From Thermoanaerobaculia bacterium (GTDB taxonomy: Bacteria; Acidobacteriota; Thermoanaerobaculia; Multivoradales; JAGPDF01): a stretch of 64,000 nt of DNA. Under the pieces are notes generated by a model that was not told where the DNA came from, ran no database searches, and saw only the letters and a program-made list of their open reading frames with translations. Where the stretch lies: positions 1-64,000 of the forward strand of contig JAGPDF010000006.1 of the NCBI GenBank assembly GCA_018057705.1, written 5' to 3'. The position numbers and the translations under genes are program-made. This document shows positions 1,452 to 41,752 of this stretch, one piece after another (the stretch's first letter is position 1; the number at the start of each line of letters is the position of its first letter).

Positions 1452-3403
<1,952 letters not shown>

Positions 3404-3417
3404 CGCCGCTGGCACTG

Positions 3418-3453
3418 CGCCCCGCACGGCGTCCCGCACTGCGTCCCGCACTG
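3418..3453. repeat. 12-bp tandem repeat, three units
   Basis: Three head-to-tail units of CGTCCCGCACTG. The first is degenerate (10 of 12 matching), the second and third (3430-3453) are identical, and a partial fourth follows. The repeat lies between the ftsH stop and the folP promoter region. No function is evident, and replication slippage is the simplest explanation. Confidence 0.75.
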
Positions 3454-3491
3454 CGTCCGATGCGCCCCTGCGACGGCCTGCGCCTCTCCGT

Positions 3492-34884: not shown

Positions 34885-37800
34885 CTACAGGTCCGCCAAC
34901 GGCCCGAGATCGACGCTCCGGCGCCGGGCCACCTCGAGCGCCTGATCGAGGGTCTCCTTCTCGCCGGCCTCGTGCGCCGCTACCGCGAGCAGCAGCCAGC
35001 CCTCCGTACCATCCAGGGTCGAGCGCGAAACCACCAGGCGCTTCAAACGCCGATGAGCAGCAGCGGCGTTGCCGGAGGCGAGCTCGAGGCGCGCCACGAC
35101 CAGCGACGCTTCGCCTTCGATCGCCGCGCGCTGGCTGCGGTCGAGTCCCTGGGCCGCGGCCGCGACCTCGCGCTTCGCTGAGGCGAGGTCGCCGCGATCG
35201 ATCGCGAGGCGGGCCAGCCCGAGGTGGGCGAGGGCGTCGAGGCCGCGTCCTTCGCGCGCCAGTTCCTCCGGCTCCTCGGCCGGAGCGAAGTCGACCGGCA
35301 GGCGGACTTTCGCCGCAAAGACTTCCGCATAGCGCGCGCTCGCGGTTTCGCGCTCGCCGGCGGCGGCCGCGGCCGTCGCATCCCTGAGCGCGGCGCGCTT
35401 CGGCGACCGCCCCAGGTCGAAAAACAGCGCGAAGACCTCGTCTCGCGGGTCGAGAACGATGCCGAGCGGCCGTTGGTCGAGCTCGAGCGTCAGCTCGGTT
35501 TGCGCACCTGTCAGCCGCAGGCGCCCGTCGAGGCGCGGGCGAGGCGGTGGATCGCCCCGCCTGCGCGGCTGCGGGGGCGGCGGTGCGTCGGCCGGCCAGG
35601 GGACGTCGATCGGCACCTGAAAGGGCACCGCGAAAGTCGTGTCGTCGACCTCCATCTCGGCGCGCCCCTCGCGGGCGACGACGGACCGGCCGTCGGCCCC
35701 GGCGACGACGCGATAGCGAAACCGGTAGGGCGCCTGCTGCCGGGCACGGATCGTCAGCGGCCACTTCTCGCCCTGCTTCGCGCCGAGCGTGGAATCGAAG
35801 TGGATCTCCGGCAGGCCCGTGCCGTAGATGAAGCGTCGCGCAAAACCTTCGAGCCCGGTGCCCGAGAGGCGCTCGATCATCTGGATCAGGTCGCCCGTGG
35901 AGAGAACCTTGCCCGAGGCGGCCTCGACGACCGCGCGGAGAATGGCGAGGAAGTCCTTCTCCGTCCAGTAGCGCGAGAGCATGCTCCAAACGACGGCCCC
36001 CTTCTTGTAGACGATGGCGTCGTAGGCGGCGGGCTCCTTGCCGGAGAGCAGCCGTGTGCCGAGCGTCACCGGCCCGAGCGATTCGACGGTGTGACCGTCT
36101 TCGGTGGTCGCCAGGAGCTCGCCCTGCCAGCCGGAGGTCGGGCCGACGAGTGGACGCTCGGCCGCGGGCAGGCGGTTGCGCGCCCAGAGCATCGCCGCGT
36201 ACGTGGCCATCGATTCGCTGATCCACTGGTCGCGATAGCTCGCCCAGCCGACCCGGTTCCCCCACCACTGGTGAGCGATTTCATGCGCCACCGTCGTGCG
36301 CCGGTCTTCGATCCCCAGCAGCAGACGCCAACCGGGATGAAGATCGCTCATCGCCAGCGAGGACAGCGTGACGAAGCCCGGGAGCCCCTGCGACATGAGG
36401 CGAGGCACCGTCACGACCCGCAGCGCGGATCCGGTGTAGGGCGAGAAGATCTCGCCGTAGTAGACCAGCGAGTCGGTGACCGCCGCGACGATCTCCTCGC
36501 GCACCTTCTTCGGGAGATCCTCGCTCTCGGCATCGAAATAGACCTCGACCGCTACCGGCGGCAGCTCCGGGCGCTCCACGGTGGCGCGCACGACCTCGAA
36601 GCGTCCGGCCTCGAATGAGTACCCGAACGCCGGAGTGCCGAGCTGGCGGCGCTCCCAGTGCGTGCCATCGGGACGCTCGCCGCCGTCGATGCGATCCCCC
36701 GCCGCGACCACCTCGAGGCGCTTCGGCCAGTTGAGGGTCACTTCGTACGTTGCCCGATCGAGGGCGCCGACGTGCGGGTACCAGGAGAGCGTGTCGCGCA
36801 GGGCGTAGAGCGATCTGCCCGCACGGTCGAGGAAACGCCCGTCGTACTCGACCTCGATCGCGGTTTCGTCGCCTGCCGCCGGCGCCGCCGCCAAGACGAT
36901 CGCGAGCTCGGCGCCCGATCGGTGAAAGTCCAGCAGAGCCCCCCTGGCGTCCCGCACCACCCGCACGACGAGGTCGGGGTGCAGCGTCGCGACGACGACC
37001 CGGTGGCTGACGCTCTGCGATCGCACCACCACTCGCGCCCGGCCGGAGAGGGTGAGGTCGCCGCTGCCCGAGAGCGTCGCCTCGAGAACGTAGCGCACCG
37101 GTTCGAAGAGGGTCCGTCGGGCCAGCGGCTTGCCGGTGGCGTCGCGCATGGGCGCGGACATCCATTGCTCCCACTCTCCGAAGTCAGCGAGCTCCAACCC
37201 CAGGCCGCGGCCCTTCTTCTGCTGCGTTCGGAGCTCGCGGGCAATGCGCCTCTGCTCGCGTTCGTCGGCCTCGATGGGCGCGAACCGCCCCAGACTGACG
37301 GCGTCCTCGGCGGCGGGGTCGATCTGGAAGATGAAAGGGGGCTCGTCTTCCTGGTGCAACCAGGCGACGAAGGCGCCGTTGTAGAGCGCCTCTCCGAGCG
37401 CGTCGGCGAGAAGGGTCGCATCGACTCCGAGCACTCGACGCTCACCGCTCTTTTGCCAGCGGGACCAGAGTGCGCTCGCGCGCTCGATCTCGGCGGCGCC
37501 CGGAGCGCTCGCGACGGCGCGACGAAACAGCGCGGCACTCGCGGTATCGCTGGCGACGACGAAGACCGCGGCGTCAAAAGGGCGGTCGAGTCGCGTCTCG
37601 CCGGTGAAGAGCTCGAGCTGGCCGGCCTCGGTGGCATCCGGCGGCACCAGACTGATTCGGCCTTCGCCGATAAAGACCACCTCCACGACCCGGCCCGCGA
37701 GCGGCGTGGCCGGAAAGAGCCAGCCATTTTCGAGACGGACCTCGGCGAGGTCGACGGCCAGATTCAGTCGCGTCACAGGAACGGCCCTGGCGACGTCCAG

Positions 37801-37995
37801 CGAGCTCTCGATCAGCGCCGCGATGACCGCCTTGGGCTCGAGAGCCGCCCCGCCCGGCGCCGCCGGGGCTTCGGCCGCCCGAGCGCCCTCGGCGCCGGCG
37901 CAGAGCGCGGCCAGCAGGAAGGCACGGGACAACAGCGGCCCCCTTCGCCGCGACGGTCCGTCGCGCAGTTGCCACCTCGGATTCGCTGCCGGCAT
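34885..37995 (-). CDS. Secreted M1-family metallopeptidase with long extensions
   Basis: 1036-residue gluzincin. The ATG at 37995 follows GAGGAG and gives a signal-like N-terminus (basic stretch, LLSRAFLLAALCAGAEGARA). About 290 residues without recognised domain precede a beta-rich M1 N-domain. The catalytic site VAHEIAHQWWGNR is followed 18 residues later by the third zinc ligand in SESMATY (HExxH-18-E), around residues 560-585. A TPR-like helical tail closes the protein. A GAMEN motif typical of M1 exopeptidases is not obvious, so it may be an endopeptidase-like or divergent member. A -10-like TAAGCT lies upstream in the RAYT-proximal intergenic region. Confidence 0.9.
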   Translation of the reverse strand: MPAANPRWQLRDGPSRRRGPLLSRAFLLAALCAGAEGARAAEAPAAPGGAALEPKAVIAALIESSLDVARAVPVTRLNLAVDLAEVRLENGWLFPATPLAGRVVEVVFIGEGRISLVPPDATEAGQLELFTGETRLDRPFDAAVFVVASDTASAALFRRAVASAPGAAEIERASALWSRWQKSGERRVLGVDATLLADALGEALYNGAFVAWLHQEDEPPFIFQIDPAAEDAVSLGRFAPIEADEREQRRIARELRTQQKKGRGLGLELADFGEWEQWMSAPMRDATGKPLARRTLFEPVRYVLEATLSGSGDLTLSGRARVVVRSQSVSHRVVVATLHPDLVVRVVRDARGALLDFHRSGAELAIVLAAAPAAGDETAIEVEYDGRFLDRAGRSLYALRDTLSWYPHVGALDRATYEVTLNWPKRLEVVAAGDRIDGGERPDGTHWERRQLGTPAFGYSFEAGRFEVVRATVERPELPPVAVEVYFDAESEDLPKKVREEIVAAVTDSLVYYGEIFSPYTGSALRVVTVPRLMSQGLPGFVTLSSLAMSDLHPGWRLLLGIEDRRTTVAHEIAHQWWGNRVGWASYRDQWISESMATYAAMLWARNRLPAAERPLVGPTSGWQGELLATTEDGHTVESLGPVTLGTRLLSGKEPAAYDAIVYKKGAVVWSMLSRYWTEKDFLAILRAVVEAASGKVLSTGDLIQMIERLSGTGLEGFARRFIYGTGLPEIHFDSTLGAKQGEKWPLTIRARQQAPYRFRYRVVAGADGRSVVAREGRAEMEVDDTTFAVPFQVPIDVPWPADAPPPPQPRRRGDPPPRPRLDGRLRLTGAQTELTLELDQRPLGIVLDPRDEVFALFFDLGRSPKRAALRDATAAAAAGERETASARYAEVFAAKVRLPVDFAPAEEPEELAREGRGLDALAHLGLARLAIDRGDLASAKREVAAAAQGLDRSQRAAIEGEASLVVARLELASGNAAAAHRRLKRLVVSRSTLDGTEGWLLLAVAAHEAGEKETLDQALEVARRRSVDLGPLADL

Positions 37996-38068
37996 GAGAA
38001 CTCCTCGGTTCTCTTTAGCTTAACCCGCTGGCTCCGCGCCGCGGCCGCAGCGCCCATCTCGTCGTCCG

Positions 38069-38178
38069 GGGACACTCAAACGGGACACACAAATGGGACA
38101 CAGAAACGGACATACCACCGGGGACACGATAGAGGGACACAATGAAGGGACACGATGGAAGGACGCAGTCAAGGGCAC
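38069..38178. repeat. Left array: nine GGGACAC units at 13-bp phase
   Basis: Units begin at 38069, 38082, 38095, 38107 (CGGACAT), 38121, 38134, 38147, 38160 (AGGACGC) and 38172 (AGGGCAC). The first three spacers are TCAAAC, ACAAAT, AGAAAC; later ones are GATAGA, AATGAA, GATGGA. The change of spacer class near 38107-38121 divides it into an outer and an inner part. It lies about 90 bases beyond the transposase stop. Confidence 0.85.
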
Positions 38179-38267
38179 TGCTCAGCAGCGCGCCTAGCGG
38201 CTAGCGACACGCAGTGCCGATTCCGCCTCTGCCCTGTCGATCCCGCAGCCGAACGCCAGCGGTTGGG

Positions 38268-38951
38268 TCAGCTGCGCGAGGTGCGACGAGATCCTCGAGG
38301 ATGTCCAACCCGGCAGCAGTTGGAAAGCAGTTCGCGGCCAGTCGCCTTGGCAATCTCTGCCAGAAAGCGCTCGTCTCCGAGCGGAAAGCCACTCTTCTCG
38401 TGCCGCCTCATGCGGGTCCTTTCACTCCAAGTCGACGAGTCTGCGAGAAGGGCGCTCCAGTCGCCGATACGCCTGTCGAGGCCTTCGACTTCGACCAGGT
38501 CGTCGGCTCCGCGCTCGACATGGGCCCGCGCGCTGGAATAGGGCCAGTCGACAGCACGATCAGCCAGGCCGGCGCGAACCGGATTCATCAGGACATAGCG
38601 TGTCGCCGCATAGAGATGCGGCTCATCCATCGCAAAGGAGGAGAACCGGCCTTGCCAGAGGCAACCGGTCCAGCCCTCTCTCCGGTTGATGATCGTCGTG
38701 TAGCGTCTATGGGCCTCCCCTACAGCGCGTGCGAGGCTCCCTGGTTCGCGCGGTACAGCGATCAGGTGAACGTGGTTGGGAAGAAGACTGTAAGCCCAGA
38801 TCGCGACCGAGTACCTCTGGCACTGGTCGGCCATGAGCTGCCGGTAGAGCTCGTAGTCGAGAGCGCGGAAGAAGGTCGTCTGCCGCCGGTTTCCCCTTTG
38901 GGTGACGTGGTGGGGTACGCCCGGAACAACCCATCGCGGGATTCTGGTCAT
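38268..38951 (-). CDS. REP-associated tyrosine transposase (RAYT, Y1_Tnp/HUH family)
   Basis: 227-residue single-strand transposase of the IS200/IS605-related RAYT type. N-terminal PRWVVPGVPHHVTQRGNRRQ, the HUH pair in LLPNHVHLIAV, WQGRFSSFAMDE, the catalytic Tyr region ATRYVLMNPVRAGL, WPYSSARAH, and a C-terminal GFPLGDERFLAEI. All parts are present, so it looks intact. The ATG at 38951 gives the family-typical MTRIPRW start. An ATG at 38990 adds 13 residues and would use the neighbouring array unit (AAGGGGAC) as ribosome site. The usual GTAG-marked REP palindromes are replaced here by heptamer arrays. Confidence 0.92.
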   Translation of the reverse strand: MTRIPRWVVPGVPHHVTQRGNRRQTTFFRALDYELYRQLMADQCQRYSVAIWAYSLLPNHVHLIAVPREPGSLARAVGEAHRRYTTIINRREGWTGCLWQGRFSSFAMDEPHLYAATRYVLMNPVRAGLADRAVDWPYSSARAHVERGADDLVEVEGLDRRIGDWSALLADSSTWSERTRMRRHEKSGFPLGDERFLAEIAKATGRELLSNCCRVGHPRGSRRTSRS

Positions 38952-38989
38952 GCCTGTAAGGACGTAATTCAGCGCTCCAACCTCGCACA

Positions 38990-39058
38990 TCGTCCCCTTT
39001 GGGTCCTGTTCCCTGTCCCTTTATCGTGTCCCTCCATGGTGTCCCTTTATTGTGTCCT
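38990..39058. repeat. Right inner array: GTGTCCC units at 13-bp phase
   Basis: Clear units at 39026, 39039 and 39052 and degenerate ones at 39013 (CTGTCCC), 39001 (GGGTCCT) and 38990. Spacers TTTATC, TCCATG, TTTATT are, on the other strand, GATAAA, CATGGA, AATAAA, the same class as the inner part of the left array. The array lies directly upstream of the transposase start. Confidence 0.8.
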
Positions 39059-39078
39059 GGCAGTTAAAGACGCCTTTC

Positions 39079-39107
39079 TCGATTCGAATCTGGCACATTC
39101 GGTTCGA
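39079..39107. repeat. REP-like imperfect hairpin inside the element
   Basis: TCGATTCGAAT (39079-39089), 7-base loop, ATTCGGTTCGA (39097-39107): an 11-bp stem with two central mismatches, within the 63-bp segment separating the two right arrays. A 10-bp perfect palindrome GATTCGAATC (39081-39090) overlaps the left arm. A mismatched stem of this size is what RAYT enzymes are known to recognise in REP sequences. Confidence 0.55.
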
Positions 39108-39121
39108 CGAGCGGCTTTTTC

Positions 39122-39180
39122 GTGTCCCGGTTGTGTGTCCCGGTTGTGTGTCCTGTTGGTGTGTCCTGTTTGTGTGTCCC
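39122..39180. repeat. Right outer array: five GTGTCC(C/T) units at exact 13-bp phase
   Basis: Units start at 39122, 39135, 39148, 39161 and 39174, exactly 13 bp apart, with spacers GGTTGT, GGTTGT, GTTGGT, GTTTGT. Reverse-complemented, these spacers (ACAACC, ACCAAC, ACAAAC) match the outer part of the left array. The array ends 10 bases before the hrpB -10 element. Confidence 0.88.
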
Positions 39181-39190
39181 GGATCCCCGG

Positions 39191-39196
39191 TAGCAT
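39191..39196 (+). promoter_or_regulatory. leaderless -10 element of hrpB
   Basis: TAGCAT, placing the first transcribed base exactly at the A of the hrpB ATG (39203). The adjacent outer array could supply the -35 region (TTGTGT at 39170-39175, only 15-bp spacing). Confidence 0.5.
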
Positions 39197-39202
39197 CGGG
39201 GG

Positions 39203-41752
39203 ATGACGCGCGAGCTGACGCCTTTGCCGGTCGACGAAACGCTCGCCGACCTTCTGGACGCGTTGCGGGCACGCGGCAATGCCGTGCTGCAGGCGCCGCC
39301 CGGGGCCGGGAAAACGACGCGGGTGCCGCCGGCGGTCGTGGCGTCCGCGGTGGTCGGCAGCGGGCAGGTCCTCGTCCTCGAGCCGCGGCGGATCGCGGCT
39401 CGGGCTGCGGCCCGCCGGATCGCCGACGAGCAGGGTTGGACCCTCGGCCGCGAGGTCGGCTGGCAGATCCGCTTCGAGCGGAACTTCACCCGTGACACCC
39501 GGATCCTCTTCGTCACCGAGGGCATCCTCGTCCAGCGGCTGCAGCGGGACCCATTCCTCGAGGGCATCGGCGCCGTGCTGTTCGACGAGATCCACGAACG
39601 CAGCCTGTTCGCCGATCTGTCGCTCGCCCTGGTCCGCCGCGTGCAGCTCGAGGCCCGTCCGGAGCTGAGGCTCCTCGCGATGTCGGCGACGCTCGACGGC
39701 GAGCGTCTGGCGGCCTTCCTCGACGCACCGATCGTCACCAGCGCCGGCAGGCTCTTCCCGGTCGCGCTCGAATACCTCGGGCCAACGCCCGCCGACACGC
39801 CGCTCGCGACGCTCGTCGCGCGTGGCGTTCGCAAGGGCCTGGAAACGACCCCTGGCGACCTGCTGGTCTTCCTGCCCGGAGTTCCCGAGATCCGGCGCGC
39901 CGAAGAAGCGCTCGCGACGCTCGCCCGGGAGCGCGACCTCGCCGTCGAGAAGCTCTACGGCGATCTCCCCTCAGCCGAGCAGGATCGGGTCCTGCGTCCC
40001 GGCCCGCGGCGCAAGATCGTCCTGGCGACGAACGTCGCCGAGACCTCGATCACCGTCGACGGCGTCACCGGCGTCATCGACTCCGGCTGGGTGAAGGAGA
40101 GCAGCGCCGATCCGTCGACCGGCCTCGAGAGCCTGACCCTCACCCGGATCTCCCGCGCCTCGGCCGAACAGCGCGCCGGCCGCGCCGGGCGCCAGGCTCC
40201 CGGCTGGTGCCTGCGCCTGTGGAGCGAACACGACCAGCGCGGACTCAAGGAGCGCGGCCGCCCCGAGATCCGCCGTGCCGACCTCGCCTGGACCGTCCTG
40301 CAGCTCGCCGCCTGGGGAGAACGCGATCTCGGACAGTTTCCCTGGTTCGAACCGCCAGAGGCGAGCGCGCTGACCTCGGCCGAGGCCGCGCTCACCCGCC
40401 TCGGCGCTCTGGCCAGCGACGGCATCACGCCGCTGGGCCGGAGGCTCGCCGAGTTTCCGCTGCACCCGAGGCTGGCGCTCCTCGTCCTCGACGGCGAGCG
40501 CCGCGGCGTCGCCGACGAGGTGGCGCTCGTCGCCGCGCTGCTCTCCGACCGCGATCCGACGGCAACGCCCGAAAGCCGCATCTCCGGCGCACGCACGTCA
40601 GCGCAGTCGGATCTGCTGGTGAAACTCGATTCGCTGCGCTCGGCCAGATCCTCGTCCTCCTCCACACTATTGCGCACAAGGGATTCGCTCCTCGACGTAG
40701 TGCGCCGATCACGCGCCGGAGACTCCGGAATGCCGGTCGCCTCGCCGGTGTGGACTGAGGAAAAGGAGGAGCGCCTTCAGAGATCGATCTTCACCGCCTG
40801 GGCCGACCGCCTCGCCCGGCGCCGCGAGCCTGGCAGCGACCGCGCCGTCATGGTCGGTGGGCGCGGCGTACGCCTCGCCCGCGAAAGCTCGGTGAAGGAA
40901 GCTGAGCTCTTCGTCTGCGTCAGCCTCGACGACAGGAGCGGCCCGCGCTCCGAGGCGCTCGTCCGTATTGCCTCTGCGGTCGAACGCGAATGGCTGCCGC
41001 CCGAGCGCCTTCGCGAAGCGACCGTCCTCGAGTTCGACGAGGAGCGCGAACGCGTCGTCGCCCACCGCCGCACCTGCTTCGACGACCTGGTGCTCGACGA
41101 CAAGGAGATCCCGATCCGCGACACCGAAGCTGCCGGTGCGCTTCTGCTGAAGATCGCGGCCAGCCGGCTCACCGAAGTCCTGCCGCTCGACAACCAGGAG
41201 TGGGAGAGCCTTCTCGCGCGCCTCCGTTTCCTCCACCACGCCTGCCCCGACCTCGCCATTCCAGCGCCGATAGAGGCCACCTTTACCGAGCTTCTTTCTT
41301 CGCTGTCCGGTTCCGCAAAGTCGTTCGGAGACCTCCGCCGAGCCCCCTGGCGAGAGTCCTTCCTCGGTGCTCTCAGCCACGCCCAGCGCAGCGCGCTCGA
41401 CCGCGAGGCCCCCGAGAGGCTCGCGGTCCCTTCCGGCAACCAGATCCGGCTCGACTACTCCGACCCGGCGCAGCCGGTCCTCGCAGCGCGCATCCAGGAG
41501 CTCTTCGGCCTCGCCGAGACGCCGCGTCTGGCCCGCGGCCGGGTGCCGGTTCTCCTCCACCTGCTCGCCCCGAACGGCCGGCCACAGCAGGTCACCGCCG
41601 ACCTCTCGAGCTTCTGGAAGACGACCTACGCCGAGGTGCGCAAGGAGCTCGCCGCGCGCTACCCGCGCCACTCCTGGCCGCTCGATCCGACGACCGCCCC
41701 GGCCGAGCGCCGCCCGCGGCCGCGCTCCGGGACCCGCACCCGCAATCACTGA
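39203..41752 (+). CDS. hrpB: ATP-dependent helicase HrpB
   Basis: 849-residue DEAH-type (here DEIH) RNA helicase. Motif I APPGAGKTT, motif Ia LEPRRIAARAAARR, motif II DEIHERS, motif III MSATLDG, motif V TNVAETSITVDGVTGVIDSG, motif VI QRAGRAGR, followed by the helicase-associated and HrpB-specific C-terminal domains (RLDYSDPAQPVLAARIQELFG). Length matches HrpB (about 810-850). The role in bacteria is poorly defined; some homologues affect mRNA processing. The gene abuts the RAYT element and appears leaderless. Confidence 0.95.
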   Translation: MTRELTPLPVDETLADLLDALRARGNAVLQAPPGAGKTTRVPPAVVASAVVGSGQVLVLEPRRIAARAAARRIADEQGWTLGREVGWQIRFERNFTRDTRILFVTEGILVQRLQRDPFLEGIGAVLFDEIHERSLFADLSLALVRRVQLEARPELRLLAMSATLDGERLAAFLDAPIVTSAGRLFPVALEYLGPTPADTPLATLVARGVRKGLETTPGDLLVFLPGVPEIRRAEEALATLARERDLAVEKLYGDLPSAEQDRVLRPGPRRKIVLATNVAETSITVDGVTGVIDSGWVKESSADPSTGLESLTLTRISRASAEQRAGRAGRQAPGWCLRLWSEHDQRGLKERGRPEIRRADLAWTVLQLAAWGERDLGQFPWFEPPEASALTSAEAALTRLGALASDGITPLGRRLAEFPLHPRLALLVLDGERRGVADEVALVAALLSDRDPTATPESRISGARTSAQSDLLVKLDSLRSARSSSSSTLLRTRDSLLDVVRRSRAGDSGMPVASPVWTEEKEERLQRSIFTAWADRLARRREPGSDRAVMVGGRGVRLARESSVKEAELFVCVSLDDRSGPRSEALVRIASAVEREWLPPERLREATVLEFDEERERVVAHRRTCFDDLVLDDKEIPIRDTEAAGALLLKIAASRLTEVLPLDNQEWESLLARLRFLHHACPDLAIPAPIEATFTELLSSLSGSAKSFGDLRRAPWRESFLGALSHAQRSALDREAPERLAVPSGNQIRLDYSDPAQPVLAARIQELFGLAETPRLARGRVPVLLHLLAPNGRPQQVTADLSSFWKTTYAEVRKELAARYPRHSWPLDPTTAPAERRPRPRSGTRTRNH

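Follow-up and report, generated by a model that had tools for sequence, protein, structure and literature searches.

The window (the whole stretch of DNA analysed, 64,000 nucleotides from a Thermoanaerobaculia bacterium) contains, at positions 38069–39180, a gene for a 240-aa REP-type Y1 (HUH) transposase placed between convergent arrays of the heptamer GGGACAC in a 13-bp phase (Table 1). The element sits between divergent genes for an M1-family peptidase (minus strand) and an HrpB-type helicase (plus strand). On its left side, nine 13-bp positions follow each other in a single register over 38069–38179 of the plus strand, six of them being exact GGGACAC and three degenerate. On the right side, the units lie on the minus strand in two sets, the inner one ending about 22 bp upstream of the transposase start codon and the outer one located 22 bp upstream of hrpB. 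The spacers are ACAAAC-like in the outer units and RATRRA-like in the inner units of both sides. This inverted arrangement of spacers, as well as the nine left units and two right sets of units, nearly all exactly 13 bp from one unit to the next, had been pointed out in a first-pass annotation of the DNA, and both were confirmed for the window element. Using 500 dinucleotide shuffles of 37901–39300 as a phase control, it was found that the longest 13-phase run did not exceed two units (a run of two in 6 shuffles), against observed runs of 3 + 3 on the plus strand and 4 + 5 on the minus strand. Elsewhere in the window, four 12-bp tandem units GGGACGCAGTGC (3412–3458, minus strand), located between ftsH-like and folP-like genes, resemble a GGGACRC array of different phase.

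Table 1. Features of the window element and of the genes beside it
Feature	Positions	Strand	Details
Flanking M1-family peptidase gene	34885..37995	-	syntenic next to the orthologous element in G007
Left outer array	38069..38107	+	units 38069, 38082, 38095; spacers TCAAAC, ACAAAT, AGAAAC
Degenerate in-register unit bridging left outer and inner arrays	38108..38120	+	GGACATA CCACCG
Left inner array	38121..38179	+	units 38121, 38134, 38147; spacers GATAGA, AATGAA, GATGGA
Left inner array, degenerate units	38160; 38173	+	AGGACGC; GGGCACT
RAYT/TIRYT-type Y1 (HUH) transposase, 240 aa	38268..38990	-	NHVH, YVLMNP; Y1_Tnp, REP_Tyr_transpos (below cutoff), AlphaFold, 4er8
Right inner array, 4 units	39013..39058	-	units 39058/39045/39032/39019; spacers AATAAA, CATGGA, GATAAA, GGAACA
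Stretch without array units separating the two right sets, 63 bp	39059..39121	.	
Right outer array, 5 units	39122..39180	-	units 39180/39167/39154/39141/39128; spacers ACAAAC, ACCAAC, ACAACC, ACAACC, GAAAAA
Flanking HrpB-type ATP-dependent helicase gene	39203..41752	+	syntenic next to the orthologous element in G007

The RAYT-like nature of the transposase, also proposed earlier, was supported. The protein matches Pfam Y1_Tnp (E 1.3e-8) and NCBIfam REP_Tyr_transpos (E 2.8e-20; 72.7 bits, below the cutoff of 80), and its residues N72, H73, H75 and Y132 are invariant among 43 sequences. The closest solved structure to its AlphaFold model (mean pLDDT 89) is 4er8, TnpAREP of E. coli, with Z 16.2, the next best match having Z 9.9. 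A helical C-terminal part is predicted beyond the catalytic core. An HTH domain was looked for in this part, but neither a credible Pfam HTH among the 43 members (one match at E 0.26) nor a structural match in the fold search was obtained. No TnpB-like ORF was found inside the element.

In the same-genus genome G007, a RAYT stands at the orthologous position, with hrpB and the M1 gene on either side. Protein identities between the two species are 60% for the RAYT, 85% for hrpB and 76% for M1. This orthologous element is also two-tiered, with other spacers (GGGACAC-ACGTTC outside and GGGACAG-TCGTTT inside). The dN/dS ratio of about 0.23 (dN 0.32, dS 1.42) means that the window RAYT is kept functional. 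Being a single copy in its genome, at an orthologous locus with this divergence, it has the behaviour of a resident gene and not that of an active insertion sequence. The remaining RAYTs of the genome share no more than 52% identity with it; three of them (52, 40 and 38%) each have their own inverted repeats with other motifs. These three genes lie at loci L053 (C26), L054 (C8:6059) and L048 1–1400 (C119), and their repeats are GTGACAGTTACC with a spacing of 28 bp, GGGACAGGCACGG with a spacing of 26 bp, and palindromes of GGGGACAGTCCCC.

Pattern searches over the 5.08-Mb genome gave 41 exact GGACACN7GGACAC matches, i.e., two units in phase; with no more than one mismatch, 69 matches were obtained vs 8 for the reversed pattern. 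Outside the window element, the units mostly form short structures, about ten convergent array pairs that enclose no RAYT and are typically centred on GGGACAC-N10-GTGTCCC, and many of these gene-less pairs fold into near-perfect hairpins. In Rfam, no match went beyond miRNA-like hairpins below the threshold. The spacers of the two arms of one element agree with each other: their identity is 0.86 vs 0.58 when arms are shuffled among elements, and none of 2000 shuffles was as high. The same matching was found in the 'deltaproteobacterial' genome DP_35 (0.77 vs 0.64, 13/2000) and was absent in the Myxococcales genome MAG102, while the comparison in the Thermoanaerobaculia genome MAG_60 was uninformative.

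One gene-less hairpin site is occupied both in this genome and in G007, with a compensatory centre (ACA-TTTT-TGT vs TCG-CTGG-CGA), both forms having -28.6 kcal/mol. A second site is likewise occupied in the two species, its spacers being different. Several other hairpins are absent from the aligned G007 site, which shows hairpin gain or loss between species of one genus. Empty G007 sites gave no exact ends or target duplication, their junctions being ragged and too diverged.

A second dispersed palindrome of about 60 bp, with the nearly invariant loop GTGGGCGACCACGCYTCAAATAGGAGCC, occurs in 32 copies in the same genome and in 17 copies in the same-genus genome, and was not found in six other genomes of the family. 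Five of its copies, all outside the window, are found no more than about 250 bp from a GGGACAC array (L041, L043, L044, L045 and L049, i.e., C6:113963, C21:6363, C32:1647, C37:38719 and C132:2045). Two candidate cases of arrays associated with other genes were also considered, namely arrays around an alpha/beta-hydrolase gene on C83 as cargo, and two MAG102 arrays around and inside an RlmL-like gene as cargo or insertion. The proteins have no clear net insertion in comparison with solved homologues, and therefore neither cargo nor insertion is claimed. The RlmL-like rRNA methyltransferase ORF (L106 2670–3923, minus strand) contains an in-frame 13-bp array (3355–3413) near the THUMP-methyltransferase linker.

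When 84,980 species genomes were scanned for three phased units, the matches listed included at least five further array-rich genomes, three of them from relatives; several of the array-rich genomes are fragmented MAGs. Exact two-unit matches number 73 in MAG_60, 43 in ACD1 (Acidobacteria), 145 in MAG102, 69 in DP_35 and 10 in a same-genus Thermoanaerobaculia bin, with 0 for the reversed control. All five genomes hold a RAYT of one clade enclosed by convergent arrays, together with gene-less hairpins. Thus, the check proposed in the first-pass annotation, on co-occurrence and orientation of arrays and Y1_Tnp genes, gave a positive answer: both occur together in at least six genomes, the window genome included, and the arrays always converge on the gene. 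In the family of the window genome, arrays were found in exactly four of eight genomes, the same four that have an array-flanked RAYT; they were not found in the three genomes with only other RAYTs or in the one with no RAYT. Genomes G306, G307 and G308 apparently correspond to family genomes G006, G003 and G007, as contig numbers and matches coincide. None of 296 other genomes of the phylum has three-unit arrays, though 24 hold a RAYT relative at E<=1e-45, and many of the RAYTs there have single GGGGACACAATAC-like repeats or palindromes on their flanks. This association of RAYT and arrays is a correlation, drawn from genome sequences.

The heptamer is constant, and the 6-nt spacer is lineage-specific: ACAAAA/G; GTACGG and others; TCGTTG/TCGATT; CCTTCG and CTTCCG; ACGTTC. 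In DP_35, there are two related RAYTs, one in CCTTCG arrays and another in CTTCCG arrays. Among all close GGGACAC pairs of the five genomes, the 13-bp period accounts for 73/76, 43/49, 10/10, 69/81 and 145/201, a statistic that is partly ascertained because the array-rich genomes were found via the 13-bp phase. Lone same-direction GGGACACN6 minisatellites also exist in unrelated genomes that have no RAYT of the clade. Arrays existing as ordinary repeats with no RAYT had been named beforehand as evidence against the link; such minisatellites do exist, but among the matches listed, no inverted multi-copy form was seen without the RAYT. In the Bacteroidetes genome SZAS-90 (L115), dispersed same-direction GGGACAC-TAGCGT arrays give 17 two-unit matches with no flanking clade RAYT, and only a distant RAYT is present elsewhere in the genome. 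In a Desulfuromonadales bin (L271), GGGACAC-N10-GTGTCCC hairpins lie on both sides of a 35%-identical RAYT, and all seven two-unit matches are on the contig of this gene.

When 45 RAYTs were placed in a tree, those with array flanks fell into two groups inside one well-supported 17-member clade. Near them stand RAYTs with other flanks: a single inverted GGGGACACAATACTTAA in MAG102 C23, similar repeats in G143 and G134, two units 19 bp apart in G009 and a three-unit array with a 14-bp phase in MAG102 C107. The array of the latter (L220), GGGACACAGTGCTT, GGGACACATTGCCT, is intermediate between the single-unit and 13-bp forms. Arranged by their arrays, these elements make up a graded series of single-unit (GGGGACACAATAC...), 14-bp-phase and 13-bp-phase forms, near one another on the transposase tree, and the inner-tier spacers (RATRRA in the window element, AATACC in a gene-less hairpin on C3) resemble the single-unit motif. 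The simplest reading of this proximity is that an ordinary terminal inverted repeat may have been multiplied in whole units, once or twice.

The arrays have defined ends. Just outside the outermost unit, the trinucleotide YYG stands in 13/28 arrays of the window genome, 12/22 of MAG_60 and 9/17 of ACD1 against a background of about 8%, whereas internal spacers end in YYG in 0/48 and 0/68 cases in the window genome and MAG_60, respectively. DP_35 has TTG as the outer end in 19/28 cases vs 2/59 internally, and many hairpins carry it at both ends (TTG...CAA). The YYG may be part of the element or of the target. Beyond about five bases outside the arrays, there is little information in most genomes, and no GT[AG]G consensus was found in the 14 bases outside the outermost units, the information being concentrated in YYG at -3 to -1.

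The first-pass annotation knew of no description of such an element. In fact, its kind has been described. TIRYTs/TIRtrons are RAYT-like genes with GGGGWSAS terminal inverted repeats in place of GTAG REPs (Di Nocera et al. 2013, PMC3733652), and they belong mostly to TnpAY1 subclass 2.1, which equals Bertels group 1 (Quentin et al. 2018, PMC6006769). The window element likewise has a Y1 gene with HUH and tyrosine, flanking GGGGWSAS inverted repeats (GGGGACAC, the start of the left array, at 38068) and dispersed repeat pairs; in some genomes, TIRtron repeats are also scattered as dimers or in groups. Unlike them, the window repeats form 13-bp-phased arrays of several units, whose spacers are specific to the lineage; the accessible text of these two papers mentions no phased arrays for TIRtrons. 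With subclass 2.1, in which the window protein is placed by motif and length only, it shares NHVH, Y---NP, a size of about 238–240 aa and a C-terminal extension. In the accessible text of PMC6006769, genes of this subclass are reported to have a C-terminal HTH and no adjacent REP-like sequences, whereas repeats are abundant in the array genomes and no HTH was detected in the window clade.

Among other relatives, REPINs/BIMEs with their RAYT are also non-autonomous inverted repeat pairs that fold into a hairpin and have a family-specific RAYT in the genome (PMC3116915), but the arrays have no GT[AG]G foot, and each of their arms is a row of 13-bp units, not one short palindrome. The canonical REPtron, a GTAG REP with TnpAREP, differs in having this GT[AG]G at the palindrome foot. 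IS200/IS605 TnpA elements have the same HUH single-tyrosine catalytic fold; unlike them, the window element has no TnpB and no near-identical multiple copies, and long inverted arrays take the place of their small subterminal hairpins. A non-exhaustive search of RAYT literature, part of which was accessible only in portions, did not bring up the phased-array form, and GGGACAC as text gave only unrelated matches. As far as these portions go, what is new is the phased-array ends and the REPIN-like phased hairpins, and not the kind of element.

Summarizing these data, it may be concluded, with a probability of roughly two-thirds, that the locus is a TIRYT-type element (TIRtron), i.e., a RAYT-like HUH transposase gene with terminal inverted repeats whose GGGACAC core was multiplied into a 13-bp-phased array. 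The transposase would recognise the GGGACAC-plus-spacer unit and would nick single-stranded DNA at the outer array ends, at YYG before the first unit, when its two arms have paired into a single hairpin, e.g., on the lagging strand. The hairpin might then be moved or copied, as has been proposed for RAYTs and REPINs. TnpAREP is known to cut single-stranded REPs near C↓T and to be capable of strand transfer (PMC8266576); in Pseudomonas, REPINs are excised as doublets (PMC3116915). The arms could gain or lose whole units via slippage or unequal exchange, their likeness being maintained by repair on the opposite arm or by selection for pairing. Multiplied units could raise the affinity or be slippage products, which would be tolerated because both arms stay complementary. 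Points against this reading are the resident behaviour of the single-copy RAYT, the ragged empty sites of G007 and the absence of arm matching in MAG102.

The phased array may also be a new class of transposase recognition site, on which RAYTs sit side by side on the heptamers in fixed phase, the spacer sets the identity of the element so that several RAYTs of one genome would each address arrays of their own, and hairpin activity is tuned by how long the array is; we consider this possible but rather unlikely. The earlier proposal that the RAYT recognises a phased array has fared well as an association, seen in at least six genomes and in the DP_35 RAYTs, each with its own spacer class, while recognition itself is what we infer from it.

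The proposal that spacer classes mark outer and inner ends did not hold as a general rule, and a two-tier end code was rejected after six genomes. Two tiers occur in the window element and its same-genus orthologue; in other genomes, arrays have one class or a different class per side, and some gene-less hairpins of the window genome have only outer-type or only inner-type spacers. A nested insertion of a RATRRA-type array element into an older ACAAAC-type hairpin, which concerns only this detail and is compatible with the TIRYT-type reading, would agree with the existence of both types as separate hairpins in the genome and with the 63-bp gap between the tiers on the right. We regard it as doubtful, because the left side keeps a continuous 13-bp register across both tiers, the gene-less C3 hairpin has both types within one array, and the G007 orthologue is two-tiered with other sequences. 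In the TIRYT-type reading, the two tiers would be two spacer subfamilies joined in one array.

Less probable is that the arrays are operator- or iteron-like platforms, where the RAYT or a host protein binds the phased units in duplex or cruciform DNA and thereby regulates the transposase or genes nearby, with rare or past movement. The conserved phase with varying spacers, the position of the right arrays just upstream of the RAYT and hrpB, the resident and constrained RAYT at an orthologous locus and the predicted C-terminal helical part are consistent with such binding. Scattered gene-less hairpins, species differences and distinct outer ends, however, call for a dispersal process, and the C-terminal part has neither a detected HTH nor a structural match. 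Ordinary, independently arisen minisatellites with a transposase merely nearby are very improbable, since the lone same-direction repeats of unrelated genomes and SZAS-90 are outweighed by the convergent orientation, the recurrent 10-bp centre, co-occurrence with one RAYT clade, the distinct outer ends and the graded series on the RAYT tree. A microsatellite or chance origin was rejected, as the shuffles, the orientation of the arrays and their co-occurrence with the RAYT all speak against it.

The usual view of RAYT repeats is that of single palindromes with a GTAG tag. The array genomes depart from this picture: members of the apparent subclass 2.1 branch do have genome-wide partner repeats, in the form of phased unit arrays. 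The natural series of single unit, 14-bp array and 13-bp array lends itself to tests of the way in which an HUH transposase reads its repeats, and of how REPIN-like hairpins originate and stay paired.
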